From the NCBI RefSeq assembly GCF_014904695.1, contig NZ_JACXXN010000009.1:124001-188000 (forward strand): a stretch of DNA of 64,000 bases, given 5' to 3'. This DNA is from Nostoc sp. MG11. GTDB lineage: Bacteria > Cyanobacteriota > Cyanobacteriia > Cyanobacteriales > Nostocaceae. Position numbers and translations under genes: made by a program. This document shows, one piece after another, positions 19,374 through 64,000 of the stretch (its first letter is position 1; each line of letters opens with the position of its first letter). The notes under the pieces were generated by a model. It was not told the DNA's origin. It saw only the letters and a list, made by a program, of their open reading frames with translations, and ran no database searches.

Positions 19374-19601
19374 TTACTGGATGTTGCCAGATGTGTCCTG
19401 CATCTGCTTCCGAAGACTAAGCGGCCTCATATCAGTCCAGACTTCTTTGATGTAATCTAGACATTCTTGCTTTAAACCATTTTTTCCGACATCCTTCCAA
19501 CCAAGAGGGCTTTCGCGCTCAGATGGCCAAATGGAATACTGTTCTTCGTGATTAATTACAACTTTGTAAATTGTTGTGTCTTCTTTGTCATTTTGATACA
19601 T
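19374..19601 (-). CDS. MbtH-family NRPS partner protein
   Basis: A 75-residue MbtH-like protein, the small chaperone that binds adenylation domains and is often required for their activity. The signature runs [13 protein letters not shown], then a Gly-Trp ([10 protein letters not shown]), [19 protein letters not shown], with the invariant Trp residues of the family. The length fits. It serves the NRPS genes upstream in the same direction; being one copy near the end of a long unit it could assist all the A domains, at least three of which are seen in this window. A ribosome site AAAGG precedes the ATG. It is separated from the MATE gene by 101 bases. Confidence 0.93.
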
Positions 19602-19702
19602 AATTAACCTTTTGGTATTTAATTAAACATGCCTTGTAATCTGGCGCTAACTTTAATAATTGGTGCGGAAAAATTTAATTATTATATTAGTTTTATATCT
19701 AA

Positions 19703-21076
19703 CTATTTACTCTCTTGAACTTTAAGCAAATTCAAATACTTAAATTCCAAAACTGTTAGTACCAATATAATTAACATAAATAAAATATCTGCTAAAAACA
19801 TTCCATAATATATGCCTCTGACACCTGAGATTCGAGAAAAGAATAGTATCATCGGCACAGTTAAGATTATACTTCTTAGCAAAATTACTACTAATACAGT
19901 TTTACCTTTGCCTATGGATAGAAAAAGAGTATTGCTAAAGAATGCTACAGACCATATTGGCATTAGTATACTGAGAATTCTAAAATTTAGCAGGTCATCT
20001 TGTGTAAAATTTACGCTTGGCAGAATTAGACCCAAAAATGTCCTTGGAGATAATTGTAAAGGCAACCAAATTAATATTAATAAAATAGTTCCAATAATTG
20101 CAAAAGTCAAGTATGCTTTTTTGATCCTTTCATAATTTTTTGCGCCGTAATTCATTCCAATTATAGGTTGTAATGCTTGTGCAAAACCAATAATGGGAAT
20201 AAATACAATTGATGTCAGTTTTCCCGTTGCTCCAAAGAAAGCAATATCACTGTTTGTTCCGTAGTAAGAAATTAAATTAAAAATTACAAAATCTTGAATC
20301 AATATGGTTACTGGATAAAATAATTCTGATATTCCAACGGATAGAATTGCACGTAGTAAGTCTATGGCGATCGCTAAATTTTTAAAATTAACTGAAATAG
20401 AACTTTTACCAGAAACAAAATAACCTAAGTTGGCAATACTATAAACAACCATCGCCATAACTGTCGCCAGAGCGATCCCTTGAATTCCCCAATGAAATAC
20501 ACTGATGAATATATAATTTAATATAATATTAATAACGACAAAAAGCCAGTCAAATATTGTGCTTAACCGAATCTTTCCTTCTGATTTTATAACTTGATTA
20601 CAAGCTTCCGCTATGATCAAAAATACTGATCCTAGTATATAGATCTTAAAATATTTTGTACCTTCTAAAGCAACTTCACCACTTCCTCCAATGAATACAA
20701 TTAATTCTTCACTAAAGCTGTAACCAATAATTGTGATGAAAAATGAGATGACAACACTCATCACAATTAAGTTGCTAAGTATTTTGGACTGAGTTTTGAT
20801 ATCTCCAGAACCAATAGCTCGACTAATAACAGAAGCAGAACCTACCCCAACTAACAGGGCAAATCCGTTTACTATACTTGTAAATGGCAGTGCAAGTGAA
20901 ATCCCAGCTAAAGCAGTTTCACCAATGAATCTTCCTGCAAACAAAGCATCAATAAAAGTGTTTAAACTAAGCATCAATATCCCCAAAGTACTGGGAATAG
21001 ATAACTTAAACATCAGCTTAATAAGATTACCTTGAAGGATTTCATTTGTAATTTGAGATTGTTTTTGTGAAGTCAT
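19703..21076 (-). CDS. MATE-family multidrug/metabolite exporter
   Basis: A 457-residue integral membrane transporter with 12 predicted hydrophobic helices in two halves, as in MATE (NorM/DinF) proteins that expel cationic or amphipathic compounds against Na+ or H+. The N-terminal half contains STLGILMLSLNTFIDALFAGR, the helix-1 MATE signature with its Asp, and the second half ELFYPVTILIQDFVIFNL. Its place inside the cluster, 25 bases downstream of the sucrase-ferredoxin-like gene, suggests it exports the product. The product is predicted to carry free amines from diaminobutyrate, which would suit a cation exporter. The family is clear; the cargo is inferred. Confidence 0.9.
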   Translation of the reverse strand: MTSQKQSQITNEILQGNLIKLMFKLSIPSTLGILMLSLNTFIDALFAGRFIGETALAGISLALPFTSIVNGFALLVGVGSASVISRAIGSGDIKTQSKILSNLIVMSVVISFFITIIGYSFSEELIVFIGGSGEVALEGTKYFKIYILGSVFLIIAEACNQVIKSEGKIRLSTIFDWLFVVINIILNYIFISVFHWGIQGIALATVMAMVVYSIANLGYFVSGKSSISVNFKNLAIAIDLLRAILSVGISELFYPVTILIQDFVIFNLISYYGTNSDIAFFGATGKLTSIVFIPIIGFAQALQPIIGMNYGAKNYERIKKAYLTFAIIGTILLILIWLPLQLSPRTFLGLILPSVNFTQDDLLNFRILSILMPIWSVAFFSNTLFLSIGKGKTVLVVILLRSIILTVPMILFFSRISGVRGIYYGMFLADILFMLIILVLTVLEFKYLNLLKVQESK

Positions 21077-21101
21077 TTTTTAGTTTTTGGATCATTTCTG
21101 T

Positions 21102-22133
21102 TTACTCAACTTTAATCAAACGGCTAACGTGATACTGCCTCACTACTTCTAACTCCATCTCTTTTGCTGAGTTAAATGCACTCATGACGTCACCACAGAC
21201 TTCTACTCTGGCTTCATAAGCACCTGATGTACTACCATCTGGAACTGCAAAATCAATACGAACTTCTGCCCAGTCAGCATCCTGTCCTTGGGCAACATTT
21301 TCCATCGCCAGCACTTTGCCTGCTTTCAAGTAATCTAGCCAACTCCAACTAGACTGCATCCAAATTTCGCGTTCAGCATTTTGCTCAAATTCACTTAAAC
21401 CAGTCCATCCTCGATAGTATTGACGCAAGCCAAAAACTGAACCATTTCGCTGCACCAATAAATCCAATACATCTGGCTCTAAATGTCCCCATAAATGACC
21501 TTGGGGTAAATCAACTAAGGTAGGAGCAAATTGATGACCACCAAAATGAGTTGTTTGCCAAATTCTTAACTTTCCATTAGAAGCAGGAGCATATTCTTTA
21601 CGTAATCGTCGATAGATAAGAGTCCCAAATCTGCCACAAGCAAGGTCAACTTGAGCATGGGTACAAACCATAAGTTCACGAATGTGACTCGTTTTGTGTT
21701 GATATTGCTGAAATTCCGATAAATCGTTAGGTTGGTGCATTAACTGCTTAAATATTGCTGTCACCAAAGCAACGGTTTCGCTTTCTGGAACAATAAACTC
21801 CTGTTTCTCAAACTGAGAAAACAGCTTTGCAGGACGGTAGTAGTAGAACAGGCGGGTAAAACCAGGATAAGAATACTCGCCATCAGGAGCAATTAGCATC
21901 GGTTTCAACTTAACCCCATGCTTAAAAATTAACTCTTCAAATAAACCCATCAATGATTTAATAGTTGGATTTTTTTGAAATATTTCTTGCGGCCAAGGTT
22001 GGGCAACTTCCACAATCAACCAATAATCGTAAGTACCTGCTGTCCCAATTAGATCTTCTCCATTAGCTTTAGAAACCAAGGAACAAAAACGACAGTCACT
22101 TATGAGAAATTGGTGAGTATGTTGAGTTGGCAT
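21102..22133 (-). CDS. Sucrase/ferredoxin-like Fe-S protein (Apd1/Aim32-like)
   Basis: A 343-residue protein of the sucrase-ferredoxin-like family, with thioredoxin-fold domains that in Apd1/Aim32 carry a [2Fe-2S] cluster held by two Cys and two His. The likely ligands are visible: CTHAQVDLACGRFG offers two cysteines and THFGGHQFAPTLVDLP offers the HxxxH pair; CRFC near the N-terminus is a further pair. The C-terminal 90 residues form an extra domain. In cyanobacteria these proteins are usually uncharacterised. Its place between a P450/SDR block and the MATE gene makes a redox-donor role for the P450 an attractive inference, but ferredoxins elsewhere in the genome could do that too. Confidence 0.82.
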   Translation of the reverse strand: MPTQHTHQFLISDCRFCSLVSKANGEDLIGTAGTYDYWLIVEVAQPWPQEIFQKNPTIKSLMGLFEELIFKHGVKLKPMLIAPDGEYSYPGFTRLFYYYRPAKLFSQFEKQEFIVPESETVALVTAIFKQLMHQPNDLSEFQQYQHKTSHIRELMVCTHAQVDLACGRFGTLIYRRLRKEYAPASNGKLRIWQTTHFGGHQFAPTLVDLPQGHLWGHLEPDVLDLLVQRNGSVFGLRQYYRGWTGLSEFEQNAEREIWMQSSWSWLDYLKAGKVLAMENVAQGQDADWAEVRIDFAVPDGSTSGAYEARVEVCGDVMSAFNSAKEMELEVVRQYHVSRLIKVE

Positions 22134-22188
22134 ATTTACTATCTCTGCTCTAGCTGTTTTTCAAAAATAATGAAATAGCGATAAATTA

Positions 22189-23076
22189 CTAATCAAATCC
22201 CATTCCTTTTTGCATATCCTTGTATAAGTTGTCATAAAAATATTGATGCGGTACCAATCTTTTATACAAGGCATATAGCCTAAGTTCCCATGATGATTGT
22301 GTGACAAAATATTGTCTTTTAGGTTTTCTAGCTTCCAGAGCCTCCAAAATTGTATTTGCCACTTTTTCAGGTGGTAAACCTGTGCTGCGATTGTCCTCTA
22401 CTGCTCCTTGCATATATATTTTGTAATTTTTGCCATATATAGCTTTAGTTTCGGGTAACATATTAGCTAATGTTTCCTGGTAACTAGCTTCTACTTTGTT
22501 AGCCTGTTCTGGGGTTACTATTCCCCCTGGTAAGATAGAAATAACCTCAATTCCACTAGAGGATAATTCCATTCGTAAAGAATCTGTAATTGCCTCGATC
22601 GCAAATTTTGAAGCAGATAAGAGACTTCTATAAGGTAGAGCTAATCTGCCACAAATCGCGCTGATATTAATGATTCGACCTTTAGCTTGTCGGATCATTG
22701 GCAAGAATGCTTGGGTAACTGCAATTTGACCGATAACATTTACTTCAAAATTCCATCGGATGTCATCTATCGGAATACATTCGAGTGGCCCATCTACTGC
22801 TACAACTGCATTATTAATTAAGGCAAATAATCCTTCATCGCCAACTGCTAATGAGACAAATTCGCTAGCAGATTTAATTTCTTCTGCTTTTGTGATGTCC
22901 ATAATAATTGGTGTTAAATTACCAGATGCAGCCTGCTTTAGTGAATGTGCATCTTTCTCTGTGCGAACTCCAGCAAAAACGCGATATCCTTGTTTGGCTA
23001 GTAAAAGTGCGGTTACTCGACCTAAACCTGTAGATGTTCCTGTGATGACGACTGTGCCTTTATTAGTGTTATTCAT
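22189..23076 (-). CDS. SDR-fold protein with missing catalytic tyrosine
   Basis: A 295-residue SDR-like protein. The cofactor loop is TGTSTGLG and the NNAV motif replaces NNAG. The active-site YxxxK is LSASK: Lys157 is kept, but the Tyr four residues before it is Leu153, encoded by TTA. The serine before it (NISAICGR) is present. A classical SDR without this Tyr cannot do normal acid-base catalysis, so it may have a structural or non-reductase role, or use the nearby Tyr of PYRSL. It lies 68 bases from the P450 and 55 from the Fe-S gene, clearly in the operon. The length and C-terminal extension match the 11beta-HSD/retinol-dehydrogenase-like branch. Confidence 0.85.
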   Translation of the reverse strand: MNNTNKGTVVITGTSTGLGRVTALLLAKQGYRVFAGVRTEKDAHSLKQAASGNLTPIIMDITKAEEIKSASEFVSLAVGDEGLFALINNAVVAVDGPLECIPIDDIRWNFEVNVIGQIAVTQAFLPMIRQAKGRIINISAICGRLALPYRSLLSASKFAIEAITDSLRMELSSSGIEVISILPGGIVTPEQANKVEASYQETLANMLPETKAIYGKNYKIYMQGAVEDNRSTGLPPEKVANTILEALEARKPKRQYFVTQSSWELRLYALYKRLVPHQYFYDNLYKDMQKGMGFD

Positions 23077-23144
23077 GTCTTTTTATGTCTAGAAAGGGTA
23101 AATTTAGAAATATAAGTAACGAAATGAAAAATCAAATTCACTGG

Positions 23145-24530
23145 CTAAACTAAACCAGCAGTTAATGGTTGCGATTGTCCTTGATCTTGACGGCGATCGC
23201 GCATGACCATTTTCACACCACTTGCAGGAGAACAAATCAAACCTGCGAATTTGGGACGTTCTGGGCGCTTACTAACTAACTCTAATTGATAGCCTGAAAG
23301 AATCGTTGCTAATACAAGTTTCATTTCAAATAGGGCAAAAGTTCCGCCAATACACACACGATAACCGCCACCAAATGGCAGAAATTCGTAAGGAGAAAAT
23401 TGTTTTTCTAAAAAGCGCTCTGGTCGAAATTCCTTTGGATTTGGATATAAATCATTACGCTGATGCGTCGAATAAATATTACCAATAAGTATCGTACCCG
23501 GATGCAGTTCGTACCCCATGATTTCAACGGTCGATTCTACCAACCTGGGAAATGTAAACAACTGAGTTGGATAAATTCGCAAAACTTCATTACATACAGC
23601 ACTGAGGTAGGGGAGTGCAATAATGCTCATGGGGTCTGGATTTTGACCAAGACTATCAAGTTCTTTTAGTAGTTTTTCTCGAATATCTTTTAAACGGTGA
23701 ATCCAGTATAAAGACCAACTAATAGCAGTCCCAGAAGCATCAGCAGCGGCAAATATAGGTGATAACAAAAGGTCACGCACCTCTTCATTGCTTAATAATT
23801 CACCTGTTTCATCACGAGCAAATATCAAATCACAAAGTATATCAGTGCGTGAAAAATCTGCTTGTTTGCGACGTTCTTCGACTTCAGTAGATAGTAACTG
23901 AAAAAGTTCTCGTTGTAGGTGAAGAAGATATCCATGTGGACTCCATCTACCTAAATCTTTTTCTGGAAAAATATTGCTAAGAATTTTAACTATAAGAGAT
24001 TGTCTATCGAGTTTAAGCAAAGATGCAAATAAATGCTTGATTTTGTCATAGCGTTCTCCTTTATATAAACCGATTACCCGCTCTATACCTACTTGAAAGG
24101 TAATATCTTCAATGACCGAGTATGCAACAAAAGGTTTTCCAACCACTTGTTTACTCATCATCTTTTCTGTGAGTTCACAGATACCTCGCCCACAGGCTTG
24201 CATCCGCGTTCCATGAAAAGCCTGCATTAGAAGCTTACGCCGATTTTTATGAATTAAACCATCAAGTTGCAGAACTCCTTGATTTCCAGTTATAAATGCG
24301 AAATCTTGATTCAACGCACCTGTAGCGGAAATTTCCTTGGTATTTGTGAAAATCTCTTTTATTCCTGAAGGATTGCTGATGTAAACAATTGGTGTAGAGC
24401 CAGACATTACAGTCACGATATCACCATAATGTTTGGAAATAGCATCCAGATAACTAAAGGGATTAACCTCAAATTGCAAACCTAGTAGCCATAAGGGTGT
24501 TTTCGGCCCTGGGGGTGGGGGTAGTTTCAT
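23145..24530 (-). CDS. Cytochrome P450, CYP110-like
   Basis: A 461-residue soluble P450 monooxygenase. The opening MKLPPPPGPKTPLWLLGLQ is typical of cyanobacterial CYP110 proteins, which act on fatty acids, terpenes and related chains. The haem-binding loop is FLPFGGGYRVCIGG with the axial Cys; the ExxR motif is NEVLRIYP; PERF is at RPERFLEKQF. The I-helix reads AAADASGTAISW: the usual AGx(D/E)TT has Asp kept, Ala for the first Thr and Ser for the second. It shares its ATG with the stop of the terminal NRPS (TGATG), so it is translated with that enzyme and very likely oxidises its product or intermediate. The Fe-S protein two genes on may donate electrons. Confidence 0.92.
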   Translation of the reverse strand: MKLPPPPGPKTPLWLLGLQFEVNPFSYLDAISKHYGDIVTVMSGSTPIVYISNPSGIKEIFTNTKEISATGALNQDFAFITGNQGVLQLDGLIHKNRRKLLMQAFHGTRMQACGRGICELTEKMMSKQVVGKPFVAYSVIEDITFQVGIERVIGLYKGERYDKIKHLFASLLKLDRQSLIVKILSNIFPEKDLGRWSPHGYLLHLQRELFQLLSTEVEERRKQADFSRTDILCDLIFARDETGELLSNEEVRDLLLSPIFAAADASGTAISWSLYWIHRLKDIREKLLKELDSLGQNPDPMSIIALPYLSAVCNEVLRIYPTQLFTFPRLVESTVEIMGYELHPGTILIGNIYSTHQRNDLYPNPKEFRPERFLEKQFSPYEFLPFGGGYRVCIGGTFALFEMKLVLATILSGYQLELVSKRPERPKFAGLICSPASGVKMVMRDRRQDQGQSQPLTAGLV

Positions 24531-27500
24531 CAGTCTTTTTTACTCCCATTACTTATTACATTGCACACAGCATGATCAATACAATTTCTCAGATGTTTAG
24601 CTAATTCCTGAATATGAGGCTCAACGAAAATTGAGAAATGATCGCCAGGAACTTCAATTACTTGAATAGGTTGACTAGAATATTTACCCCAACCTAATAA
24701 GGGATCATCAGTATTCCATTCTGGATTGTCAAAGTCATGAATAATTTCCTCCTTCGCTCGAAATAGAGTTATGGGTTGAGGATAAAGTAGCGGAACATAA
24801 TCTCGCATGGCTTGAACATCAGCTTTAAAAAGTTTGTAATAGCTAATAAAATCTTTAATCTCTGTATCGCTAAAGATGAAGTTTGCTTTCTTATTAATCA
24901 AATCTATTTGCTCATTTAGGGGCAAATATCGAAGTTCTTCAAAGGGAATTGAAAAATCTATATTATTATCGGTTTTTATCGATTCAGCCATGCGGAGTAA
25001 AAATTTTGCATCGTCATCTTTTGTAGATTCAATGCGTGTTTCTGAGAGTATGGCATCAATAACAACTAGCAAATCTACCGTTTCACCCTGTCTTTGTAAT
25101 TGCTGCGCCATTTCAAAAGCAAGTACACCGCCGTAACAATGTCCACCTAAAAGATAAGGGCCATTTGGCTGTACTTTACGAATTTCTTGGAGGTAGTTAT
25201 TTGCTGTTTGTTCTAGTGAGATAATTTCAGGTTTTTCTTGGTTAGGGGTATGCTCCAAGGCATAAAATGGATAATCTTCACCAAGTCTTCTGGATAAGTT
25301 AAAGTAATGATTAATACCTCCACCAGCACCATGCATACAAAAGAAAGGTGTCTTTGAACCAGAAGAGTTAATTGCTACAATAGGTGAATTAGAAATTTCG
25401 TGCGATCGCTGACTTACAATGAGAGCGAGTTTCTCAATTGTAGGACTTTCAAAAAGAGTAGATAAGGTAAGATTATGCCCGAATTTATCTTGAATTTGAG
25501 CCATTAAGCGTACAGCTAAAAATGAGTGACCACCTAAGTTAAAGAAGTTGTCTGTTACGCCGACAGGGCTAATATTCAGCAGCTTTTCCCAAAGTTTTAC
25601 TAATGATAATTCTGTAAAATTGCGAGGAGCAATGAGAGATTTAGTAGTATTTGGTCGAATAAGTTCATCTGTGGGAAGAAAACGCTTATCTACTTTGCCA
25701 TTAGGCGTAAGTGGGAGTTCATCTAATACAACAATGGCAGATGGTAGCATATAATTAGGCAATTTTTGTTGCAAAGATAGCAATAATTGTGTAGCTATAT
25801 CATGTTTTTCTGTGACAACATAAGCAATCAAAGATTGATTTTCTTGAACATCATTCACAGCAATTACAATAGATTCTTGTACATCTGGATATTGGGTAAT
25901 AACTGTAGCAATTTCATGCAGTTCTACTCGAAAACCTCTGATTTTTACTTGTTCGTCATTACGACCTAAATATTCCAGATTACCATCGTTGAGATAACGA
26001 ACCAAATCGCCTGTTTTATAAAGCTTTGTTTGGGGAATAAGGGGGTTATCGATAAATCTTTTCTGGGTTAATTCAAGACGATGTAAATATCCCCTTGCTA
26101 ACCCATCACCACCAATATAAAGTTCGCCAACAACTCCTACAGGTGTTGGTTGTAAATTGCGATTCAACACATAGACTTGAGTATTATCAATAGGACGACC
26201 GATAGGGACACTGTTTGCTTGGTTTTGTAATAAACTGGTGTCGTAATAAGTAGCGTTAGCGGAAACTTCCGATGAGCCATAAAGGTTGATTAGTTTTGCA
26301 AATGGGATCAATTTTTGGAAAGTTTTAGCTAACTTAACAGACAGTGCTTCTCCGCTAGTTATCCAGAGTTTTAGGTGCAATAATTTCTTGACCAGATGAT
26401 GGTAATTATCTAAAAGTAAGCGTAGTAATGAGGGTACAAGGATAATACGGGTAACTTTGTGATGCGCTAAAGCTTCTATAAATAACTGCGGGTCTAGTAT
26501 AGTTGCATTGCTGATAATTACTGTAGGAATTCCCTGAAGTAAAGGAGCAAAAATTTCCCAAATAGAATCTACAAAGCTAATAGCTGTTTTCTGACAACAA
26601 ACTTCTCCTGGGGTAAAAGGATAAGTTTTCCATAGCCAGTGTAAGCCATTCACTGTACCGCGATGAGTGCCAAGAACGCCTTTAGGAGTTCCAGTTGAGC
26701 CAGAAGTATAGATAATATAGGCAAGATTATCAGATGAAGAGATGTTAATGGGATTTTCTGGACTTTCTTGAGCAATTTCGTCTTTATGGATATCTAAGCA
26801 AACGATTTTAGCTGAAGATAATGATAGTTTTTCTAATATTACTTGGTGGCTAATTAATACCGATGCTTGAGAATCAGAGAGCATAAAATTTAGACGCTCA
26901 ACTGGATAACTAGGATCAAGGGGAATGTATGCACCGCCAGCTTTCAGGATAGCTAAAATTCCCACTACCATGTTTACAGAACGTTCAAGACATAGAGCAA
27001 CAAGTGTTTCTTTTGTTACGCCTTGTTTTTGTAAATAATGTGCAAGCTGATTAACTTGATGATTAAGTTGACGATAAGTAATTTTTTCTGATTGGCTAAT
27101 TAATGCTAAAAAGTCAGGCGTTAATTCAACTTGCTGCTCGAATAATTGATGCAGAGATACATCTTGATAATCTACACGAGTTTGATTAAATTTGAATAAT
27201 AATTGCTCTTGTTCAGATGTAGTTAGTAGTGATAATTCACAGATGCATTGCTCTGGATTAGCAACTATATTTTCTAATAAAGTCTGGTAATTATTAATAA
27301 ATCGGGTAATGGTTATTGAATCAAAAATATCTGTATTGTACTCCAAACACCCTGTTAGTCCCTCTTGAGATTCAAACATCGACAGGAAAACATCAAGTTG
27401 GGCTGTACCGCTATCAAACTCTAAAGCCCGCAAGGTTAATCCAGATACTTCCTGCACAGATTTTGGAGTATTTTGCAGGACAAACATGACTTCATAAAGG

Positions 27501-28642: not shown

Positions 28643-28851
28643 TGCTAATATGTAATTATAAGGTTATTGATTGCGATCACAGTCTTATTTAGTTTATGAA
28701 GTTATTTGCAAATGTAGGTGACAAGAAGCTCTTACAAAAGTCATGATTTTAAACTCTTTATCTGCGTGAGGTGAAAAAATATTTTATTTCACGCAGAGAC
28801 ACAGAGATAAGAGAAATCTTGAGTGAGCACAAACAATTTAGGATTGCTGTA
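28643..28851. repeat. Hairpin with dispersed CACGCAGAGACACAGAGA repeat
   Basis: TCTGCGTGA (28761-28769) pairs perfectly with TCACGCAGA (28789-28797) around an AT-rich loop, followed by GACACAGAGA, a dispersed cyanobacterial repeat. It lies in the 209-base gap between the methyltransferase and the terminal NRPS, in a run of otherwise tightly packed genes, so it could reduce or punctuate read-through, or be the site of an internal promoter. Confidence 0.55.
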
Positions 28852-38741: not shown

Positions 38742-38775
38742 AGGAAAAATACCTAAATACAGTTATTTACAGCAA

Positions 38776-49355: not shown

Positions 49356-49405
49356 GAGATGCTTTTATTTGAATTACAAACTGAATTATGGACGCTGCAT
49401 ATTTT

Positions 49406-54800: not shown

Positions 54801-57800
54801 AAAAGTTTGTTCTTTTAACTCCTTGCAAGGTAACGTATCATTGGGCGTAATACTCCAAAAGTGAGCTAATGCATTTGGAATCAAACTATGTTTTCGGAGT
54901 TCTTGAAGCAAGGCATCGTAGTCATCGCTTTGCCGGGGATTAATGGTATATGTATACTCGTTCAGCTTAGTAAATTTATCTGCAACCCTAACTGTAACAA
55001 CATCATGGCTTTGCTGTTTCAGTCGTTTAGCAACTTCGCTTCCAACTCCATATTCATCGATAAAAACTAACCAACAAGTATTTTGCTCAGTTGCTAATTC
55101 CTTCCCTTGGAAAAACTCAAGTGGTGTAGATTGTTTCCAGATTGGGATATAAAACCAATCTGCAATATCTGACTTTTTACCTAATGATTTTTGCCATGCT
55201 TCTGATAACGCAGTTTCGGGGTCAGCTTCAATCCAGTAACGCTGACGCTCAAAAGGATAGGTAGGCAAAGGAATATGTCTGCGTTGCTCTTTTGCATAAA
55301 AACCTGCCCAATTTATTTGCAATCCTGATAGCCAAAGCCGGGAGAGAGTATTAAGCAAAAATGCTACATCAGAAATTTGCTCTTGGGGATGTCGCAACGA
55401 AGTTAAAACTACAGTCTGTGAAACTAACTGTCGTTTAGCTAAGGTAGTTAATGTTCGTCCTGGCCCAACTTCCAATAGTATTCGCTCTGACTGTTGCAGT
55501 TCGGCGATGCCCTCGTTAAACAATACGGGTTGTCGTAAATGTCTAGCCCAGTAGTCAGGATTAGTCGCCTCCTCTGCCGTAATCCAAGTTCCCGTAACGT
55601 TGGAAACAAAAGGAATTTGAGGTGATTGCAGATTGACTTCTTTAAGATGCCGTACAAATGGCTCTAAAATCGGCTCCATCATCTGGGAATGAAAAGCATG
55701 AGATGTATGCAGACAGCGACAATCAACACCTTGCTCTGTCAATCGATTCTGTAATAGTTCTATTGCATTAGTTGCACCAGAAACCACACACAGGGATGGT
55801 GCATTGCTAGCTGCTAAAGAAAGTTCTGAACCCAACATAGGTTGTATTTCTTTGGCAGAAAGAGAAACGGAAAGCATCGCCCCTGATTCGACTTGTTGCA
55901 TCAGTCGTCCGCGAATTACCACTAAAGTCAATGCTTCTTCTAAAGAAAAGACACCTGAAATACAAGCGGCTACATACTCACCAATGCTGTGACCAATCAT
56001 TGCTTGCAGATGCACACCCCACGCCATCCAAAGTTTAGCAAGAGCATATTCAATCACAAATAATGCAACTTGCGTTAAGGAAGTTTGTTTAAGTTGTTCT
56101 TGTGTGGTTTCTCCCGTCGAGGGATAAAGTATATCTCTGAGGTCTAATTTTAAATATGGTTTAAGTAATTCACAACACTCATCAACTTGTTGTCGAAAAA
56201 TCGGTTCTATTTCATATAATTCCCGTCCCATGTTTACATACTGTGCTCCTTGTCCGGGAAACATAAACACAATTGAATGGTTACGGATTTCTGAAAAATT
56301 ACTCAAAACCCTTTGTTGGTTTGGCGCTGTTAGTGCCTCGATAGCATCTTGAATATCCTGACATAGCAACACTCGACGATGGCTAAAATTTCGGCGACCA
56401 ACTTGCAAAGTATGAGCTACATCAGCAAGATTGGTATTAGGATGCTGTGTTAAATAATTAACAAGGTTAGTTGTCGCAGATTCTAGAGCCGTTTGAGTTT
56501 TTGCAGAAATAACTAACAACTGCCAAGGGCGAGAAATACTCTCTTTGGTTGTAAAAACTGGAGCTTCTTCTAAAATCACATGAGCATTCGTACCACCAAT
56601 TCCAAAAGAACTGACGCCTGCCCGTCTAGGATATTTGTCTGCTTTCCATTCGGAAAGTTTGTTGTTGACATAAAAGGGACTGTTAGCGAAATCAATTTGA
56701 GGATTTGGTTGCTCAAAGTGCAGGCTAGGGGGAATTTGTTTGTGTTTAAGAGCTAACACTGTTTTAATTAAACCTGCAACACCAGCAGCCGCATCTAAAT
56801 GCCCAATATTTGTTTTTAAGGAACCAATTGCACAGAAACCTTTCTTTTTTGTACTGCTTTGAAATGCTTGCGTCAGTGCCGCAATTTCAATCGGATCTCC
56901 TAAAGATGTCCCTGTCCCGTGAGCTTCAATATAAGTTATTGTTTCTGGTTCTAACTCTGCAACAACTTGAGCCGTTTTGATAACTTTTGCTTGACCTTCT
57001 ATGCGCGGTGCTGTGTAACTAACTTTGTTTGAACCATCATTATTAATAGCCGAACCTTTAATAACAGCATGAATAAAATCTCTATCATTTAAAGTATCTT
57101 CTAATCTTTTTAAAACAACGATTCCTACACCTTCTCCACACACAGTACCCCGCGCTTTCGCATCAAAGGCACGGCAATGTCCATCAGGAGAATTGATACC
57201 TCCTTCTTGATAAAGATAGCCAGTTTTTCTTGATGCACTGATCGAAACACCGCCAACCAAAGCTATATCACACTCACCGTTTAGTAAACTTTGGCAGGCT
57301 AAATGTACAGCTACTAATGAGGTTGAGCAAGCTGTTTGAACTGTATAGCTAGGCCCCGTCAAATTAAGTTTGTAAGAAGTACGTGTAGCAAGGTAATCTT
57401 TATCGCCAGCGATCGCTATTTGCCGTTCGTCTACTGAGTTTCTAATATTTTGATTAAAATAAATGTTTAATAAATAGCCGCTCAAGTTAGAACCAGCAAA
57501 AACACCTATGGAACCATTGTATGTTTCGGAATCATACCCTGCTTTTTCCAGCGCTTCCCAAGCACACTCTAAAAAAATCCGGTGTTGCGGATCAGTCATT
57601 TCTGCATCTCTGGGATTAAAACCAAAAAAGTTAGCATCAAAAAGTTCTGCATCTTCTATTACAGCATTAGCTTTCACATAATTTGGTTTACTTAGAAGTT
57701 CTGCATCTACTCCTGCTTTCAGTAGTTCTTCATCACTGAAAAAAGATACTGATTCTATGCCATTTTTGAGATTATGCCAAAATTCGTCAACATTTTTAGC

Positions 57801-57878
57801 CCCAGGAAATTTTCCTGCTAATCCAATAATTGCTATTTCTGAACCGTTAGTAGGATATGCACCAGTTGGAATATTCAT
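51825..57878 (-). CDS. PKS-E hybrid: KS-AT-KR-carrier-epimerase-like domain
   Basis: A 2017-residue protein. KS has Cys184 in TACSTSLVAVH; AT has GHSIGEYVAA and HTSHAFHS (malonyl); KR has TGGLGGIG and the Tyr of VDYCAANAFLD. The carrier is not a normal ACP: LAGDSIVTIQIVAKANQLGL is the PCP form found before epimerases. It is followed by an E-type domain (about 1500-2017): HHLLIDAISW with His1672-1673 and Asp1677, EDNSRE in place of EGHGRE (the Glu kept, the His Asn), SRTVGLFTTCFPAIL, then GIGYDILRY and FKYLGDFD. An epimerase on a PKS module has no obvious alpha-amino carbon to act on, which suggests that it was joined by recombination or that it acts on the residue before or after it. Confidence 0.92.
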   Translation of the reverse strand: MNIPTGAYPTNGSEIAIIGLAGKFPGAKNVDEFWHNLKNGIESVSFFSDEELLKAGVDAELLSKPNYVKANAVIEDAELFDANFFGFNPRDAEMTDPQHRIFLECAWEALEKAGYDSETYNGSIGVFAGSNLSGYLLNIYFNQNIRNSVDERQIAIAGDKDYLATRTSYKLNLTGPSYTVQTACSTSLVAVHLACQSLLNGECDIALVGGVSISASRKTGYLYQEGGINSPDGHCRAFDAKARGTVCGEGVGIVVLKRLEDTLNDRDFIHAVIKGSAINNDGSNKVSYTAPRIEGQAKVIKTAQVVAELEPETITYIEAHGTGTSLGDPIEIAALTQAFQSSTKKKGFCAIGSLKTNIGHLDAAAGVAGLIKTVLALKHKQIPPSLHFEQPNPQIDFANSPFYVNNKLSEWKADKYPRRAGVSSFGIGGTNAHVILEEAPVFTTKESISRPWQLLVISAKTQTALESATTNLVNYLTQHPNTNLADVAHTLQVGRRNFSHRRVLLCQDIQDAIEALTAPNQQRVLSNFSEIRNHSIVFMFPGQGAQYVNMGRELYEIEPIFRQQVDECCELLKPYLKLDLRDILYPSTGETTQEQLKQTSLTQVALFVIEYALAKLWMAWGVHLQAMIGHSIGEYVAACISGVFSLEEALTLVVIRGRLMQQVESGAMLSVSLSAKEIQPMLGSELSLAASNAPSLCVVSGATNAIELLQNRLTEQGVDCRCLHTSHAFHSQMMEPILEPFVRHLKEVNLQSPQIPFVSNVTGTWITAEEATNPDYWARHLRQPVLFNEGIAELQQSERILLEVGPGRTLTTLAKRQLVSQTVVLTSLRHPQEQISDVAFLLNTLSRLWLSGLQINWAGFYAKEQRRHIPLPTYPFERQRYWIEADPETALSEAWQKSLGKKSDIADWFYIPIWKQSTPLEFFQGKELATEQNTCWLVFIDEYGVGSEVAKRLKQQSHDVVTVRVADKFTKLNEYTYTINPRQSDDYDALLQELRKHSLIPNALAHFWSITPNDTLPCKELKEQTFEDCQNLGFWSLLYLTQALGRQNISDSLKLRVVTNNLYHVIGDENLYPEKATILGPCKIIPKEYPNINSCIIDVVIPASNIAPTQKFIDYLITELTTQQTDNIVAYRGYHRWIQTFETVRLDESTPGKTKLKPGGVYLITGGLGGIGLVLAEYLAKTVQAKLILIGRKGLPERSQWEQWLETHDSQDNVSRKIQKILALEELGSEVEVKSADVASYEEMQVAVAEAVEKFGQINGVIHAAGIAGGGIVQLKTQDIANSVLAPKVKGTLVLEEILNLQNINLDFLVLCSSQSSILSEFGQVDYCAANAFLDVYAHYRTLKSEQFTVAINWGTWQEVGMAVETALPEQLKLQREEDIKKGILSHEGAEAFNRILLSSLPHVVVSPQDFQTVIEQNNSFNYLEQELALLSETSKTNSQLSHPRPNLANAYVAPRNEVEQTLTDIWQQFLGIEKVGIHDNFFELAGDSIVTIQIVAKANQLGLKLTSQQMFLHQTIAELATATGMIETNQAENSSITKEVYLTPIQHRFFDQNQSDEHSLNQSLVLEMQQICNPKVLKQAVEYVIDHHDVFRLRFLQKESGWQQIKANTNDIMVYKHLDLSSLSENKQKSAFESAIAELQSDLNLSEGPLVKVAFLELRSQQNSYLVITIHHLLIDAISWQILLEDLQTAYQQLSQGKAIYLSEKSTSFQRWTQYVQEYAQTSERIHEQDYWLAKAQKPFRSLPVDYSTKANTVANAEVISISLDKKETQALLKNINKAYNTQITDVLLTALVQSFAKWTGEKQLWVDIEDNSREAIFKDVNDISLSRTVGLFTTCFPAILDITEASEQGSALIAVKEYLRSIPNKGIGYDILRYITSNPEINSKLKSFPQPQVSFKYLGDFDRVKSHSSLFNLTSQPIKFSQSPGVNRFYLVEIIGIIAQEQLQLNWTYNAAVHRRETIKTLAISFIKCLRNIIAHCQSLETEKYTPSDFPRANLSQQDLDKFLSKINRASEKKA

Positions 57879-57892
57879 TGTTTATTAATTCC

Positions 57893-60800
57893 TTAATTAT
57901 TTTCAACTGATTTCATTTTTTGTAGGCGTTTTCTTTGTTGCGCTTTACCAGCTGAAATTTTCTCTGTTTGAGTATTATTCTCCTGTAAGAATTCTGTGGT
58001 ATTTGGAGATGTTAAATACTCTGCTAAAGAATTGATGGTAGGATATCTAAACAAATCAAGAGTTGACAGTTCTGCTTTTAATATTTCCTGCAATTGGCTG
58101 TGAACTGTAACTAAAAGTAATGAATGACCGCCAATTTCAAAGAAATTATCGTGAATGCCTATCTTTTCAAGATTTAAAGCTTTTTGCCAAACTGAGGCTA
58201 TTGTCTTTTCCACCTCAGTTTGCGGTACTACATAAGCAACTTCTAATTCTGGGCGCAGGGCATCGGGCATCGGTAATGCTTGACGGTCTACTTTGCCATT
58301 AGATGTTAATGGTAATACTTCTAATATCATAAAAGCATTTGGTAGCATATAGTCAAGCAATTTATTTTGCAAAAAGCGGCGTAGTTCAGGAATTGTTAGT
58401 GTTTTATCTGGGTGGAGAGTTGTGTAGGCTATTAAAGTTTGATTTCCAGATTTGTCCTCCCGAAGGATAACTACACTTGTCGATATTGATGGATGTTCAT
58501 TAATAACTGCTTCAATTTCTCCTAGTTCAACACGGAAACCTCGTATTTTAACTTGGTTGTCAATGCGGCCTATATACTCAATATCTCCACTCGCTAAAAA
58601 GCGAACTAAATCACCTGTTTTGTAAAGGCGATCGCCTGCTTTTTTACTAAAGGGATTGGGGATAAATTTAAGGGCTGTTAATTCCGGTTGATTTAGATAA
58701 CCCCTAGCTAATCCAAGTCCGCCAATGTGCAATTCACCTGCTACTCCCATTGGTACTGGTTGCAAATATTGGTCTAAAATGTACAACTGGGTATTAGCGA
58801 TCGGCTTACCAATTGGTATAGAACCTGTAGAATGTTTCCCGACTGGAACCTGATAAATACAACAGCCTACCACTGTCTCTGTAGGGCCGTATTCGTTTAC
58901 TAATATCGTATCTGGAGCTACATCTTGCCAGAAAGTAATGCTTTGGGCTAATAAATTTTCTCCACCAATAATAAAAGCTCTAGTTTTATTTGCAATCTCT
59001 TCTTTGGATAACTGTTGTTTAAGTAAATCCAAGTGAGCGGGGGTAATTTTCACTAAACTTAAATTCGAGCTTTTACTTAAAGCTTGAGAAAGGGTTTCAA
59101 TACCTTGTTCTTCTGATAGTAATTCTACTGTACGACCAACTAATAAAGGTGGAAAAAGACTAGTGATTGTTAAGTCAAAACCCAAAGGTGAATGAACTAA
59201 AGTTCCTACTCCTTGTTCTACTGGATAGGTTTTAGTACACCACCTTAAGTAGTTAACTAATCCTTGATGGGGAATTAGAGTTCCTTTAGGTTTACCAGTG
59301 GAACCGGAGGTGTAAAGAACATAGGCTAGATTTAGCGCGGTTGTTTTAGTAATTAGATTTTCAATTTCTTGTTGGTTGATCGCTTGCCAATCACTATCTA
59401 TACAAATTACTTTAATTCCATTTGTAGCTAAATTTGCAATTAAATGCTGTTGAGTCAGCAGCACTGGCATTTGAGAATCGTTTAGTATAAAAGCTTTTCT
59501 TTCTAAGGGATAGCTAGGGTCAATGGGTATGTATGCACCACCTGCTTTTAAGATACCTAAAAGTCCAATCAGCATTAAAGGCGATCGCTCAACACAAAGT
59601 CCTACCATTACATCGGGTTTCACACCAAATTGTTGTAAATAATGAGCTAGTTGGTTAGCACGGGTGTTTAATTCTCGGTAGGTAAATTGCTGATTCTTAT
59701 AAATAATAGCAATGTTGTCTGGCGTGCGATCTACCTGTTCTGCAAAAAGTTGATGAAAACATTTATTTCTTGGAAAAATAGTTTGTGTCTGATTCAATTC
59801 AACTAACAGTTCTTGTCGTTCAATATCGCTGAGTATTTCTAATTCACTTAGCAATGCATCTGGATGATTAATTGCGCTTTGTAAGAGAGTAAAAAATTGT
59901 CCAGATAAACGTTCAATATCTTCTGGTAAAAATAATTCTGAATCATAGTACCACTCGGCGTTAAGAAAGCTTTCTGTACGTCTAAGTGATAATTTTACTT
60001 TGAACTTATCGAAACAAATATATTGCTGTGAGAGAGAAAATATGACTGCGTTTGTAGTCAAAAATTTACAATTTTGCTCTATAAAGTCAAAACAGAAGGG
60101 GAAGAAAGGTACTTCGTTGATAACTTTATCTAGTCTTGAACTTAATTCCCAATTAAAACAATCTTGCCATTCATCTGCTTGATTTTGAGTAAAAGTAATT
60201 TGTTCTAAAACTTCACTCAACTTTAAGCTACCTTGGAGATGGCAATCCACTGGTACATATTTAGCAAGAAGTCCTAGCATTTCTTGAAGTTCTTCTTCTG
60301 ATCTACCATCGCGACTACTACCAACAACCATATTTGATATATTGGTCAACCGCCATAGTAATATTTGCCAACATGTTAGTAAAAATGTTGATTCTGTAGT
60401 ATTAAAATTTTTGGCGATCGCGGTTATTTCTGCTGCTAATCGAGGTGGAATTATCTGAGTAAAAATTTGAGGTTGAAATTGAGTTTTTTTAGGAAATAGA
60501 TTTTCATTTGGCAGTTTCAAGTTGAAAATATGAGTGATATCTTTTTTTCGCCAATATTTTCTACCAATTTCCGCTTCTTCTGATGCCAATAATTCATTTT
60601 GCCAATTTGAAAAAACACTATATTGTACTGGTTCCTTTTTGATACTAATATTATGCAAATCTTCAGTGTAAGCACGACTTATTTCTAGCACTAAGTTACT
60701 AAGTGAAGTTGCATCTGCGTATAAAGCAGGTAAGTTTAATAGTAAAACATACTGAGATACGGATAGAGTAATTAGAGATACCTGTAATGAAGACGATTTC

Positions 60801-61153
60801 TCAAAATCAAAAACTTGCTGTTTAGCTGATTCAATAGCTAATTCAACAGCATTTTTTTGTTCTTCAGATTTAAGTGCGCTCAAGTCGTATTCTTTTATTA
60901 ATAGATTGCTATCACTTTCAATCGTTTGCAGTGGAATATTCATCCCTGGCAAACAACGAAAACTGGTGCAAAGAATTTGATGTCTATTTACAACACTTTG
61001 TAAAGCAATTTTTAATGCTTCGATATTTAGATTACCTGTAATTTCCACTAGACAAAATGAACGATAGGCAAGACTATGTTTATTTTGTTGTAGTAGCCAT
61101 AAATGTTTTTGTTGTGGCGAAAGTTGAAAACCGTAAATTGATGTATTATTCAT
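57893..61153 (-). CDS. NRPS protein: C-like domain without HHxxxDG, A (Asn-like), PCP
   Basis: A 1086-residue NRPS. Residues 10-440 are a condensation-type fold in which the HHxxxDG motif reads LPALYADA: both His are gone and only Asp remains. Such domains occur as 'interface' domains that recruit SyrP-type beta-hydroxylases in siderophore NRPS. The A domain (about 470-970) has YTSGSTGKPKG and reads, at GrsA-aligned positions, D L T K I G E V G (K), close to the asparagine code DLTKLGEVGK (Asp codes have His instead of Glu). PCP is IGGHSLLLVTV, followed by the basic tail AGKAQQRKRLQKMK. The upstream protein ends in a hydroxylase domain, so Asn or Asp here is a candidate for beta-hydroxylation on the carrier. 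Confidence 0.9.
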   Translation of the reverse strand: MNNTSIYGFQLSPQQKHLWLLQQNKHSLAYRSFCLVEITGNLNIEALKIALQSVVNRHQILCTSFRCLPGMNIPLQTIESDSNLLIKEYDLSALKSEEQKNAVELAIESAKQQVFDFEKSSSLQVSLITLSVSQYVLLLNLPALYADATSLSNLVLEISRAYTEDLHNISIKKEPVQYSVFSNWQNELLASEEAEIGRKYWRKKDITHIFNLKLPNENLFPKKTQFQPQIFTQIIPPRLAAEITAIAKNFNTTESTFLLTCWQILLWRLTNISNMVVGSSRDGRSEEELQEMLGLLAKYVPVDCHLQGSLKLSEVLEQITFTQNQADEWQDCFNWELSSRLDKVINEVPFFPFCFDFIEQNCKFLTTNAVIFSLSQQYICFDKFKVKLSLRRTESFLNAEWYYDSELFLPEDIERLSGQFFTLLQSAINHPDALLSELEILSDIERQELLVELNQTQTIFPRNKCFHQLFAEQVDRTPDNIAIIYKNQQFTYRELNTRANQLAHYLQQFGVKPDVMVGLCVERSPLMLIGLLGILKAGGAYIPIDPSYPLERKAFILNDSQMPVLLTQQHLIANLATNGIKVICIDSDWQAINQQEIENLITKTTALNLAYVLYTSGSTGKPKGTLIPHQGLVNYLRWCTKTYPVEQGVGTLVHSPLGFDLTITSLFPPLLVGRTVELLSEEQGIETLSQALSKSSNLSLVKITPAHLDLLKQQLSKEEIANKTRAFIIGGENLLAQSITFWQDVAPDTILVNEYGPTETVVGCCIYQVPVGKHSTGSIPIGKPIANTQLYILDQYLQPVPMGVAGELHIGGLGLARGYLNQPELTALKFIPNPFSKKAGDRLYKTGDLVRFLASGDIEYIGRIDNQVKIRGFRVELGEIEAVINEHPSISTSVVILREDKSGNQTLIAYTTLHPDKTLTIPELRRFLQNKLLDYMLPNAFMILEVLPLTSNGKVDRQALPMPDALRPELEVAYVVPQTEVEKTIASVWQKALNLEKIGIHDNFFEIGGHSLLLVTVHSQLQEILKAELSTLDLFRYPTINSLAEYLTSPNTTEFLQENNTQTEKISAGKAQQRKRLQKMKSVENN

Positions 61154-61211
61154 GATATGTAATTTGAAGAGTATTAATTATTTAATAATTATTTGTCCTA
61201 CCTATAATTAT

Positions 61212-64000
61212 TTAACAATAATGCTGAGGCTCACCCATTGCAGTTAAAATTTTTCTAGAACCAGAGTAAGGATTACGTCCGTGAGCGGTCAACATATTAT
61301 CCAGCATTAATATATCCCCTTTCTGCCAAGGATAAATAATAATTTCTTGTTGATAAGCCTCACGAATTTCTGCAATAACCGAATTTTCAATTGGAGAACC
61401 ATCACCATAAAAAGTGTTGTAGGGTAAATCTTCTTCTGTAAACTCGTTGAAAAATTTTTCTCGAAATTGTGTTTGTAAACTCGACACATGCCAAAAAACA
61501 ACGTGATTAAACCAAACCATTTCACCTGTTTTTGGATGTTGCGCTATGGCTGGGCGAACTTGACGAGTTCTTAAACAGTTGTTATCTCTCCACTCAACCT
61601 GAATGCAAGCGTTACGACAATATTTTTCCATCACAGCTTTATCTGTTGTGTGAAAAGCTTTTTGCCAAGGCAAACCAAATCCATGACCATAGTTGCGAAC
61701 TAACATCCACCCTCTTTCTTGAAAGCGTTCTCTAATCTGAGGGTGAATACGTTGAAATACTTTTCTCACATCAGCAATTGGAGTTTCTCCTCCTTGATTT
61801 GCAGGTTCAATGCAGCAAAACCATATCTTCATTGGATAGGTACTGGCATAGGATGATTCATTATGTAAAGCAATGGTTTGGTCAGCGGGAAATTCGGTAG
61901 ACGTATAAACTTTTTCGCTTAACTTAGTACGAGGTGTAGAAGATTCTGTATAAGGCATTAATTGAGGACATACGGCACTAACGAATTGTTCAAAATCTTC
62001 TTTTTGATTAATAGCAAAACCTCTAAATAAAATTCCTCCAGATTTCGACAAGTTATTGATAATGAATGCTTGATTGTTCTCAGCCCAAATTGGTAAATTC
62101 AAATCACTAAATTTAGGCGTAATAACCAAAGGTACATTTCCTTCTAATTGCAAAAAAGATTCTGTTATTAATTCTTGTTGGGATAAGTTAATTACTGTAG
62201 GTTTTGGTTGTGACTTAAATGCTTTAAATTTTTGGCGCCGGGCTTGTTGAAATTCCTGTTGCTTTGCATCTTGTCTTTGCTTATCTGCTGTTGTCAATAT
62301 TTCTTTTATGGTTATAAATTTAATCTGAGGTTGAGCAATAACGGCACGTAAAATTATTTCATAATCTGTAATAAATTTAGCGATCGCAGAAGCATTAAAT
62401 AAGTCTGTGCTATATTCCAAACTACCACTCAAACCTTGTTTGCTTTCCCACATAGTAAGCAATAAATCAAATTTAGCTCTACCATTATCAATATCTTCGA
62501 TAATTTTCAACTTCAAACCTTCTAATTCCAGTGGAAGTGTTGGGGCATTTTGTAGAACAAATTTGGATTGAAACAGAGGTGTACGGCTCAAATCCCGTTC
62601 TGGTTTCAGAGCTAATACCAACTGATCAAATGGCATATCCTGATGTTCATAAGCAGCCAATGTCACTTCACAAATACGCTTCAAAAACTCTTGAAAAGTT
62701 GGATTACCTCCAAGGTAGGTACGTAATACTAACTGATTAACAAAAAAACCAATAATATTTTCTGTTTCTGGAACATTACGGTTAGCAACATCAGTACCTA
62801 TAACGATGTCATCCTGCTTTGTGTGGTAATGCATTAAGATTTTAAATGCTGCCACTAAAGTCATAAATAGAGTGACTCCTTCCCTGTGGCTAAGTGTTTT
62901 AATTTCTTCACAAAGTTCTTTTGGCAGTTCTAGATGTTGTTTAGTACCACGAAAAGTTTGGATTTCAGGACGCGGATAGTCGGTAGGTAATTCTAGTACA
63001 GGTAAGTTAGCAAGTTGCTGTTTCCAATAAGACAAGTGTTTCTCCATAACTTCTTTTTGTAGCCACTGATTTTGCCAATAGGCGAAGTCTGCATATTGAA
63101 TTGGCAATTCTGGTAAAGGTAAAGGTACTCCTTTGCTGAAAGCTGTATAAAGCGCAGAAAATTCACGAATAAGTATACCAATTGACCAGCCATCAGAAAT
63201 AATATGATGCATCACTAACAGCAATACGTAAGTTTCTTCATCTAAGCGCAATAAACTAACTCGCAGCAATGGATCATTAGCTAAGTCAAAAGGTTTTTGA
63301 GCTTCTTTTTGGATTGACTCCTGTACCTTAACAAACTGTTTTTCTTTTGAAATTTCACTTAAATTTATTATTGGCAGAGACATTGAAGTAAATGGAGCAA
63401 TTATTTGTACAGGAACTCCATTTACTTTCCTAAAATTAGTACGTAATGCTTCTTGACGCTGCAAAAGTTCTTTGAAACTTTGCTCTAAAGCATTTATGTC
63501 TAAATCTCCGTTCAGGTAAACGGCAGCTGGCATATTATATGTAGAATTTTCCTTTTCCAATTGATCTAGAATCCACAATCTTTTTTGGGCAAAAGATAGG
63601 GGTAATTCCATCTCTCGTGAAACTCGTTCAATTGGTGGAATTGACTTAGTGATTTGCTGTTTATTCTCAAAAACTTTGGCTAATTTTGCTATCGTCGGTA
63701 ATTCAAAAATTCGGCGCAATGGTAATTCAACATCAAATATCTTATTAATGCGGGATATAACTTGGGTGGCTAACAGTGAGTGTCCACCCAATTCAAAAAA
63801 GTTATCGTTTATTCCTATTTTTTCTAAGCCAAGTACTTGCATCCAGATCATCGCCATCTGTTTTTCAACAAGCGTTTGAGGAGCAACAAAGGTTTCTTCA
63901 AATTCTGGACTTACTCTATCAGGTGCAGGTAATGCTTTGCGGTCAACCTTGCCATTGGGTGTAAGTGGGAGTGCCTCTAATATTACAAAACTTGTTGGCA
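61212..64000 (-). CDS. NRPS (partial): A-PCP-C with fused SyrP/TauD-type hydroxylase
   Basis: The left end of an NRPS cut by the window edge; the frame is open to the last base. It ends an A domain (ALPLTPNGKVDRKALPAPD is the A8-A10 core), then PCP (LGGHSLLATQV), then an LCL C domain with HHIISDGWS. A basic linker (RQDAKQQEFQQARRQKFKAF) leads to a TauD-like domain of about 300 residues. Its iron site is HNESSY (HxE) and AHGRNPYSGSRK, with the distal His and the Arg that binds 2-oxoglutarate. The HxE rather than HxD is typical of SyrP/AsnO-like amino-acid beta-hydroxylases. The specificity of the A domain lies outside the window. The next gene has the matching C-like domain without His. ATG 63857 is only internal. 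Confidence 0.93.
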   Translation of the reverse strand, partial: PTSFVILEALPLTPNGKVDRKALPAPDRVSPEFEETFVAPQTLVEKQMAMIWMQVLGLEKIGINDNFFELGGHSLLATQVISRINKIFDVELPLRRIFELPTIAKLAKVFENKQQITKSIPPIERVSREMELPLSFAQKRLWILDQLEKENSTYNMPAAVYLNGDLDINALEQSFKELLQRQEALRTNFRKVNGVPVQIIAPFTSMSLPIINLSEISKEKQFVKVQESIQKEAQKPFDLANDPLLRVSLLRLDEETYVLLLVMHHIISDGWSIGILIREFSALYTAFSKGVPLPLPELPIQYADFAYWQNQWLQKEVMEKHLSYWKQQLANLPVLELPTDYPRPEIQTFRGTKQHLELPKELCEEIKTLSHREGVTLFMTLVAAFKILMHYHTKQDDIVIGTDVANRNVPETENIIGFFVNQLVLRTYLGGNPTFQEFLKRICEVTLAAYEHQDMPFDQLVLALKPERDLSRTPLFQSKFVLQNAPTLPLELEGLKLKIIEDIDNGRAKFDLLLTMWESKQGLSGSLEYSTDLFNASAIAKFITDYEIILRAVIAQPQIKFITIKEILTTADKQRQDAKQQEFQQARRQKFKAFKSQPKPTVINLSQQELITESFLQLEGNVPLVITPKFSDLNLPIWAENNQAFIINNLSKSGGILFRGFAINQKEDFEQFVSAVCPQLMPYTESSTPRTKLSEKVYTSTEFPADQTIALHNESSYASTYPMKIWFCCIEPANQGGETPIADVRKVFQRIHPQIRERFQERGWMLVRNYGHGFGLPWQKAFHTTDKAVMEKYCRNACIQVEWRDNNCLRTRQVRPAIAQHPKTGEMVWFNHVVFWHVSSLQTQFREKFFNEFTEEDLPYNTFYGDGSPIENSVIAEIREAYQQEIIIYPWQKGDILMLDNMLTAHGRNPYSGSRKILTAMGEPQHYC

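Follow-up and report, generated by a model that had tools for sequence, protein, structure and literature searches.

The window analysed here, a stretch of 64,000 nucleotides, covers positions 124001-188000 of contig NZ_JACXXN010000009.1 (C238) from Nostoc sp. MG11, a genome of 8.4 Mb in 238 contigs. Its minus strand carries a hybrid non-ribosomal peptide synthetase (NRPS) and polyketide synthase (PKS) cluster (Table 1) that starts at ~18357, continues for ~15.5 kb beyond the window end and is followed there by transport genes. All reading frames in the cluster are open. The part outside the window comprises the rest of the C-A(Gly)-T-C-TauD gene, a KS-AT-KR-ACP-E gene, a gene for a fatty-acyl-AMP ligase (FAAL) joined to ACP-C-A(Gly)-T, and a second cupin_8 gene. 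The window is likely to hold most of a colinear line that builds a metallophore of the lipopeptide type, probably a siderophore, and that would make its own 2,4-diaminobutyrate (Dab) and beta-alanine (beta-Ala).

Table 1. Features of the cluster within the window. A, adenylation; ACP, acyl carrier protein; AT, acyltransferase; C, condensation; E, epimerization; KR, ketoreductase; KS, ketosynthase; PLP, pyridoxal phosphate; SAM, S-adenosylmethionine; SDR, short-chain dehydrogenase/reductase; T, thiolation; TE, thioesterase. Residues in brackets are predicted.
Feature	Position	Strand	Basis
3' part of C-A(Gly)-T-C-TauD gene (whole gene L009:1212-6839)	61212..64000	-	Pfam; TauD domain ~61245-62105
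Interface-type C (no HHxxxDG)-A(Asn)-T	57893..61153	-	Pfam; code DLTKIGEVG
PKS KS-AT(malonyl-type)-KR-ACP with E-like domain (~51888-53264)	51825..57878	-	Pfam; AT motifs GHSIG, HAFH; TIGR01720
Stand-alone C domain with HHxxxDG (HHITTDG)	50422..51825	-	Pfam
Cupin_8/JmjC oxygenase	49406..50287	-	Pfam; JMJD5 structures are the nearest solved relatives
EctB-type diaminobutyrate-2-oxoglutarate transaminase (predicted Dab supply)	48099..49355	-	TIGR02407, NF006733
Half C-A(Dab)-T; A domain ~45675-47240	45282..48044	-	Pfam; code DIWEMVADD; pocket region nearest PvdL
PKS KS-AT-KR-ACP, malonyl-type AT	40605..45257	-	Pfam; motifs
PanP, PLP-dependent aspartate 1-decarboxylase (predicted beta-Ala supply)	38776..40452	-	TIGR03799
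PKS KS-(AT remnant)-KR-ACP; AT ~100 residues short, reads GDGIG	34371..38741	-	Pfam; motifs
PKS KS-AT-(KR without NADPH motif, FAGGLESIE)-ACP	29751..34337	-	Pfam; motifs
SAM-dependent methyltransferase	28852..29610	-	Pfam; no NCBIfam model above cut-off
C-A(beta-Ala)-T-TE, TE motif GGHCYGG (Cys nucleophile)	24530..28642	-	Pfam; code VDWIISLAN
Cytochrome P450	23145..24530	-	Pfam; homologue in 52/52 genome handles searched
SDR oxidoreductase	22189..23076	-	Pfam
Sucrase/ferredoxin-like protein (PF06999)	21102..22133	-	Pfam
MATE-family exporter	19703..21076	-	Pfam
Second SDR oxidoreductase, retained at the edge of many relatives	18357..19244	-	Pfam

Domain orders were taken from Pfam, and family calls were judged against the curated cut-offs of NCBIfam/TIGRFAM. 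The pocket codes of the A domains, read against a fragment of GrsA, are DIWEMVADD for the module beside the EctB-type gene, VDWIISLAN for the terminal module, DLTKIGEVG for the module behind the TauD domain, and DILQLGMIW for the A domain of the C-A(Gly)-T-C-TauD gene, which lies outside the window. The last three are of the types that denote beta-Ala, Asn and Gly. For the pocket region of the first, the best match among solved chains is PvdL (4.2e-22, with 25 sequences matching at 1e-5), whose aligned code, DIWELTADD, is two positions off DIWEMVADD and one off the DIWEMTADD of four relatives; the PvdL module in question presumably takes Dab. The cyanochelin B cluster of Leptolyngbya sp. NIES-3755 plasmid 2 (AP017310.1) served as positive control. 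Its codes (DLYNLSLIW, DAWTIAAVC, DILQLGLIW, DLTKIGHVG, DVWHFSLID, DLTKIGHVG, DILQLGLIW) agree with the order Cys, Phe, Gly, Asp, Ser, Asp, Gly given in its published description (PMC12628792), so that the code reading works on this line.

Thirteen clusters were read side by side: the MG11 cluster and its relatives G386, G421, G392, G423, G402, G427 (without its 5' end), G352, G340 (front incomplete), G407, G400, W01 and W02. The TauD domain of the MG11 line is the C-terminal part of a gene whose start lies beyond the window; it retains the HxE and HGRxPY motifs and shares 51-52% identity with each of the two cyanochelin TauDs. PMC12971057 describes the TauD models CyanoBH_Asp1 and CyanoBH_Asp2. 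The C domain preceding A(Asn) lacks HHxxxDG, as do its counterparts in all TauD-bearing clusters read and those of both beta-hydroxy-Asp modules of cyanochelin B. The TauD-type beta-hydroxylase with an interface domain without HHxxxDG, as in cyanochelin-type lines, is thus present; the Asp-specific A domain of those lines is not, the code being DLTKIGEVG (Asn) against DLTKIGHVG twice in cyanochelin B. In W02 two modules follow a TauD each, one reading Asn and the other Asp. From code and domains, the residue in the MG11 product is expected to be beta-hydroxy-Asn, and the pairing of an Asn-like module with a SyrP-like oxygenase, made earlier in a sequence-only reading of the window, is borne out.

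Transport genes adjoining the line speak for the metallophore reading. The genes for a TonB-dependent receptor, a periplasmic binding protein and a DUF1636 protein diverge from the first biosynthetic genes; past this block, those for an ABC exporter, an O-methyltransferase, an ABC ATPase and two FecCD permeases lie again on the minus strand. PF00593, PF01032 and PF01497, the transporter families that serve as siderophore markers in PMC12971057, all adjoin the biosynthetic genes. The FAAL start points to a lipopeptide, and the interface domain with TauD recalls cyanochelin B. For the distribution among relatives, the P450 was searched in 52 genome handles, and EctB and the MG11 receptor in 53, own included; the pairs G278/G416 and G300/G404 gave identical places and were counted once, leaving 50 relatives. 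A TonB receptor lies on the same contig as the cluster P450, 3-80 kb away, in 39/50. Among 48 whole genomes seen, 37 have the receptor near the P450, against 6.0 expected for random placement with the same receptor numbers within 85 kb, where the numbers for G352 and G340 come from a homology search with the MG11 receptor and may be low, and those for G129, G336 and G172 come from a separate search. Nine relatives without a receptor on the contig (G389, G401, G405, G410, G412, G414, G418, G424, G428) have contigs that end 8-41 kb upstream; for G389, G401, G405, G410, G414, G418 and G428 the absence holds among the matches listed, and in G401 EctB and a receptor stand together on another contig.

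Several points weigh against a metallophore. The Asx module reads Asn, not Asp; beta-hydroxy-Asn is no usual siderophore ligand, which tells against a simple siderophore. G129 has no TonB receptor on the P450 contig, and in G399 none was found on a contig that reaches ~66 kb further upstream. The receptor counts cover related genomes and are thus not independent cases, and the 12 relatives read came from the set whose contig carries a receptor, which makes them no test of receptor proximity. For a Fur box in the divergent region of MG11, the classical 19-mer is matched at 13/19 positions, a score reached by 45% of shuffles, and the cyanochelin B control does no better. Cyanobacterial lipopeptides started by a FAAL are often antifungal, and a defensive or membrane-active lipopeptide, with TonB/Fec genes as mere neighbours or serving other import, would suit both the Asn code and G129. 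We nevertheless regard it as unlikely, given the excess of receptors near the P450 and the place of the receptor gene, which in MG11 diverges from the first biosynthetic gene and in Gloeocapsopsis lies inside the cluster.

The EctB-type transaminase scores 577.7 bits against TIGR02407 (cut-off 552.2) and 614.3 against NF006733 (cut-off 438), and PanP passes TIGR03799 by a narrow margin (612.2 bits versus 606.1). The sequence-only reading had placed an EctB-type aminotransferase in the operon of an A domain with an acidic pocket, and a PanP-like decarboxylase with an A domain for beta-Ala; both pairings agree with these scores and with the codes DIWEMVADD and VDWIISLAN. EctB and a DIWEM[VT]ADD module are concordant in 13/13 clusters, both present in 10, where the module is half-C/A/T, and both absent from three (G392, G423, W01); a random deal would give this once in 286 times, lineage apart. 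PanP and a terminal A domain of the beta-Ala type occur in 13/13. EctB homologues (at least 78% identity) were found in 33/53 handles, own included, or 31/51 counted singly, and share the contig of the P450 in 28 of these 31. The MG11 genome has one EctB homologue at 1e-100, a separate PanD on another contig, and one PanP match over the cut-off, the two others being weak (67.8 and 20.5 bits), which fits dedicated supply genes. No ectoine synthase EctC was matched in the genome; the control genomes were silent too. Curated scores, codes and co-occurrence in relatives thus support the view that the line provides Dab and beta-Ala for itself.

A transaminase and a PLP decarboxylase in one operon could also jointly make 1,3-diaminopropane, as in a schizokinen-type pathway, instead of making two monomers. 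The Dab decarboxylase model NF052646 does match PanP at 154.2 bits, far below its cut-off of 900, whereas TIGR03799 is passed; as PanP also occurs in three clusters without EctB, and the A domains fit Dab and beta-Ala separately, this alternative is very improbable. Action of the cupin at 49406-50287 on Dab was considered as well. Its homologues occur in 6/6 DIWEMVADD clusters read and 0/4 DIWEMTADD clusters, but the four T-type clusters form a single clade in the A-domain tree, so that the pattern represents a single event and is a lead only. The half-C domain as docking partner of this cupin was rejected, since it is also present in the four clusters without the cupin. The second JmjC/cupin_8 oxygenase, at the cluster start (L001:14488-15480), is related to the JMJD5 and FIH structures and has homologues in G386 and, twice, in G400.

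The PKS genes of the window, read earlier as three modules and a PKS-E hybrid, are all present, and the E assignment is upheld by TIGR01720 (141.3 bits; cut-off 74.2); one of them, however, has no working AT, and in another the NADPH motif of the KR is broken. The AT of 34371-38741 has lost ~100 residues and GHSxG; in its N-terminal part it is very similar to the AT of the next PKS. The lesion is common to Nostoc sp. B (G386), with a similar form in Westiellopsis (G421), and the affected module may be bypassed or depend on an enzyme acting in trans. In G352, G407 and G400 another module, the PKS on the Dab side, has the cut AT; these three clusters also have free-standing, possibly trans-acting AT genes of the GYSIG type (starts at G352:C1:4029046, G407:C18:37124 and G400:C133:20530). 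The last KR departs from GGxGxxG in 12/12 clusters that have it, G340 having no KR there; two other KRs also depart from the motif, both in W01. A silent, decaying line, which the AT deletion and the KR change might suggest, is scarcely credible given open reading frames throughout and lesions that look inherited and tolerated.

The E-like domains carried by PKS genes make up a variant group. MG11 has two, at 51888-53264 and at the C-terminus of L001:2871-8813, which keep HHxxxD (HHLLID, HHLAVD) and read EDNSR, at 51888-53264, and EGNSR in place of EGHGR. Eight of the 13 clusters contain nine such domains, all with HHxxxD and all with a changed E4 motif (EDNSR, EDNGR, EEDGR, EGNGR, EENGR, DENGR or EGNSR); seven E domains borne by amino acid modules read EGHGR (five), ESHGR and EGQGR. 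In MG11 (twice), G386, G421 and G402 the PKS-borne domain accompanies a malonyl-type AT (GHSIG/HAFH), so that the substrate carbon would have no stereocentre and nothing obvious to epimerize. In G392, G352, G407 and G400 it accompanies a GYS[IL]G-type AT; in two of these four no KR was found. A cassette of four genes (dehydrogenase, ACP, acyl-CoA dehydrogenase, HAD-IIIC phosphatase), which we take to be of the alkoxymalonyl-ACP type, follows the GYS[IL]G-type ATs without exception: seven clusters have both and the remaining six have neither. The best match to its phosphatase in the MG11 genome reaches 32%. One hypothesis is that the PKS-borne domains formerly served alpha-oxygenated ketides and that MG11 lost this substrate.

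The terminal block of the line is constant. In 13/13 clusters the TE reads GG[HW]CYGG, with Cys, and is followed by the P450, for which no solved relative was found at 1e-30; in many relatives, unlike MG11, a second, tandem P450 (~55-61% identical to that of the window) adjoins the first (e.g. G387:C66:135141, G412:C34:276535, W02:409761). With the last KR broken or absent, a beta-Ala A domain and a Cys-type TE, the constant end would be a beta-ketoacyl-beta-Ala thioester with a varying peptide ahead of it. By sequence, the nearest solved TE is that of AB3403 (4zxh; 7e-27), which is described as having a Cys nucleophile, Asp at the usual position and a product called uncharacterised, and is thus no guide to release chemistry (PMC11298585). 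The same paper describes Cys TEs as less common and links ring closure by ObiF and SulM to a moved Asp. Release as beta-lactone or beta-lactam, as in these enzymes, is not favoured, since by sequence the Asp of the MG11 TE appears to be at its usual place.

A bolder proposal, to which we would give only a small chance, is that the constant end represents a novel head group, reactive or able to bind metal, and, alongside, that the PKS-borne E-like domains are a new class. The acidic CH2 between the carbonyls could attack the beta-Ala thioester in a Dieckmann closure on the TE, giving a 3-acyl-piperidine-2,4-dione, which the P450 would then oxidize. Such a product would correspond to the metal-binding 3-acyl tetramic acids, with a six-membered ring instead. 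Adjustment to the receptor would then fall to the exchangeable front half. On the alkoxymalonyl-type modules of four relatives, the E-like domain could reverse the configuration at the alpha carbon of alpha-oxygenated ketides.

Close relatives of the cluster exist in dozens of other cyanobacteria. The terminal NRPS has its best named relative in Nostoc sp. B(2019) (97%); in a search of 386 genomes of the phylum, own included, MG11 and at least 8 others match at 65% identity or more among the matches listed, and a scan of named genomes kept 77 loci, 49 of which (L031-L079, some from the same genome) match at 75% or more. At the DNA level, identity with Nostoc sp. B is 94-96% from ~10.2 kb to 59844, just ahead of the Asn A domain; past this point only pieces of 65-78% remain, to ~76.35 kb in joined MG11 coordinates, and further on the FAAL (92%) and the receptor (86%) match again. 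The Westiellopsis match breaks at 59764. A middle block thus looks exchanged at a C-A boundary, between the conserved 3' half and the variable middle. The genome as a whole has 50 condensation-domain matches (C184, C227, C22, C4, C179 and other contigs), which point to several more NRPS clusters.

Taken together, the best reading of the product is acyl-Gly-ketide-Gly-(OH)Asn-ketide-Dab-ketide(s)-beta-Ala. The FAAL would load a fatty acid, to which the line would add Gly, a reduced malonyl unit and Gly. Asn would come next, hydroxylated by the TauD domain together with the interface-type module, then a reduced malonyl unit, Dab, one or more malonyl units, the last kept as a beta-ketone, and beta-Ala. 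The chain would be released by the Cys-type TE and tailored by P450, SDR and methyltransferase. The EctB-type enzyme would convert aspartate semialdehyde to Dab and PanP aspartate to beta-Ala, each adjoining the module that uses its product, and the metal complex would be re-imported via the neighbouring TonB receptor, FecB and FecCD/ATPase. The core proposed earlier, X-(beta-OH)Asn-ketide-Dab-ketide(s)-beta-Ala, is right so far, with Gly as the predicted X, and is the 3' part of a longer line; as the fatty-acid start and the TonB/Fec genes lie outside the window, the likely function had escaped notice. The cluster is real, larger than first described, and probably the metallophore line of a family for which no description was found in the open-access literature searched. 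If so, it represents a widespread Nostocales metallophore family recognisable from sequence by its fixed beta-keto/beta-Ala/Cys-TE/P450 end, a Dab module travelling with the EctB gene, and an exchangeable front half adjoining a TonB receptor. It would also offer a natural test case for the action of an epimerization-type domain on polyketides.

Cyanobacterial metallophores are called understudied in PMC12971057, and searches of the open-access literature for the combination of features gave no description of the cluster family. The lusichelin and fatuamide clusters both carry a salicylate synthase, and the texts searched on them mention neither beta-alanine nor diaminobut. PvdL, a pyoverdine synthetase, has the solved A-domain pocket nearest to that of the Dab module; the rest of its line and its product are unrelated. 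The cyanochelin B cluster is likewise a FAAL-started NRPS/PKS line, and shares TauD enzymes with interface-type C domains before the Asx module, a divergent TonB receptor, Fec-type genes and a PF06999 gene (L010 ~37500-38760; 375 bits to that of MG11), perhaps a general metallophore accessory. It differs in its Asp codes, two beta-hydroxy-Asp modules, a Cys heterocycle and reductive release; EctB, PanP and a beta-Ala module are absent, and the receptor is distant (72 bits). Closer are the clusters of the Gloeocapsopsis dulcis AAB1 plasmid (NZ_CP119970.1) and Nostoc sp. UHCC 0926 pn1 (NZ_CP117772.1). In the literature searched no product was found for either, the papers listed with UHCC 0926 concerning mycosporine sunscreens. 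A stretch ~16 kb past the terminal NRPS of UHCC 0926 (NZ_CP117772.1:423853-423972) bears a PLSDB mark for Erm(K), 120 bases at 100% identity and too short for a gene. The front halves of the two clusters differ, and both carry the alkoxymalonyl-type cassette that is absent from MG11; G. dulcis, unlike MG11, is without EctB and the Dab module. Both share the terminal block of the MG11 cluster, made up of PanP, PKS, a beta-Ala module ending in a Cys TE, and P450; their TonB receptor lies beside the cluster or, in Gloeocapsopsis, inside it, and they belong to the same family.

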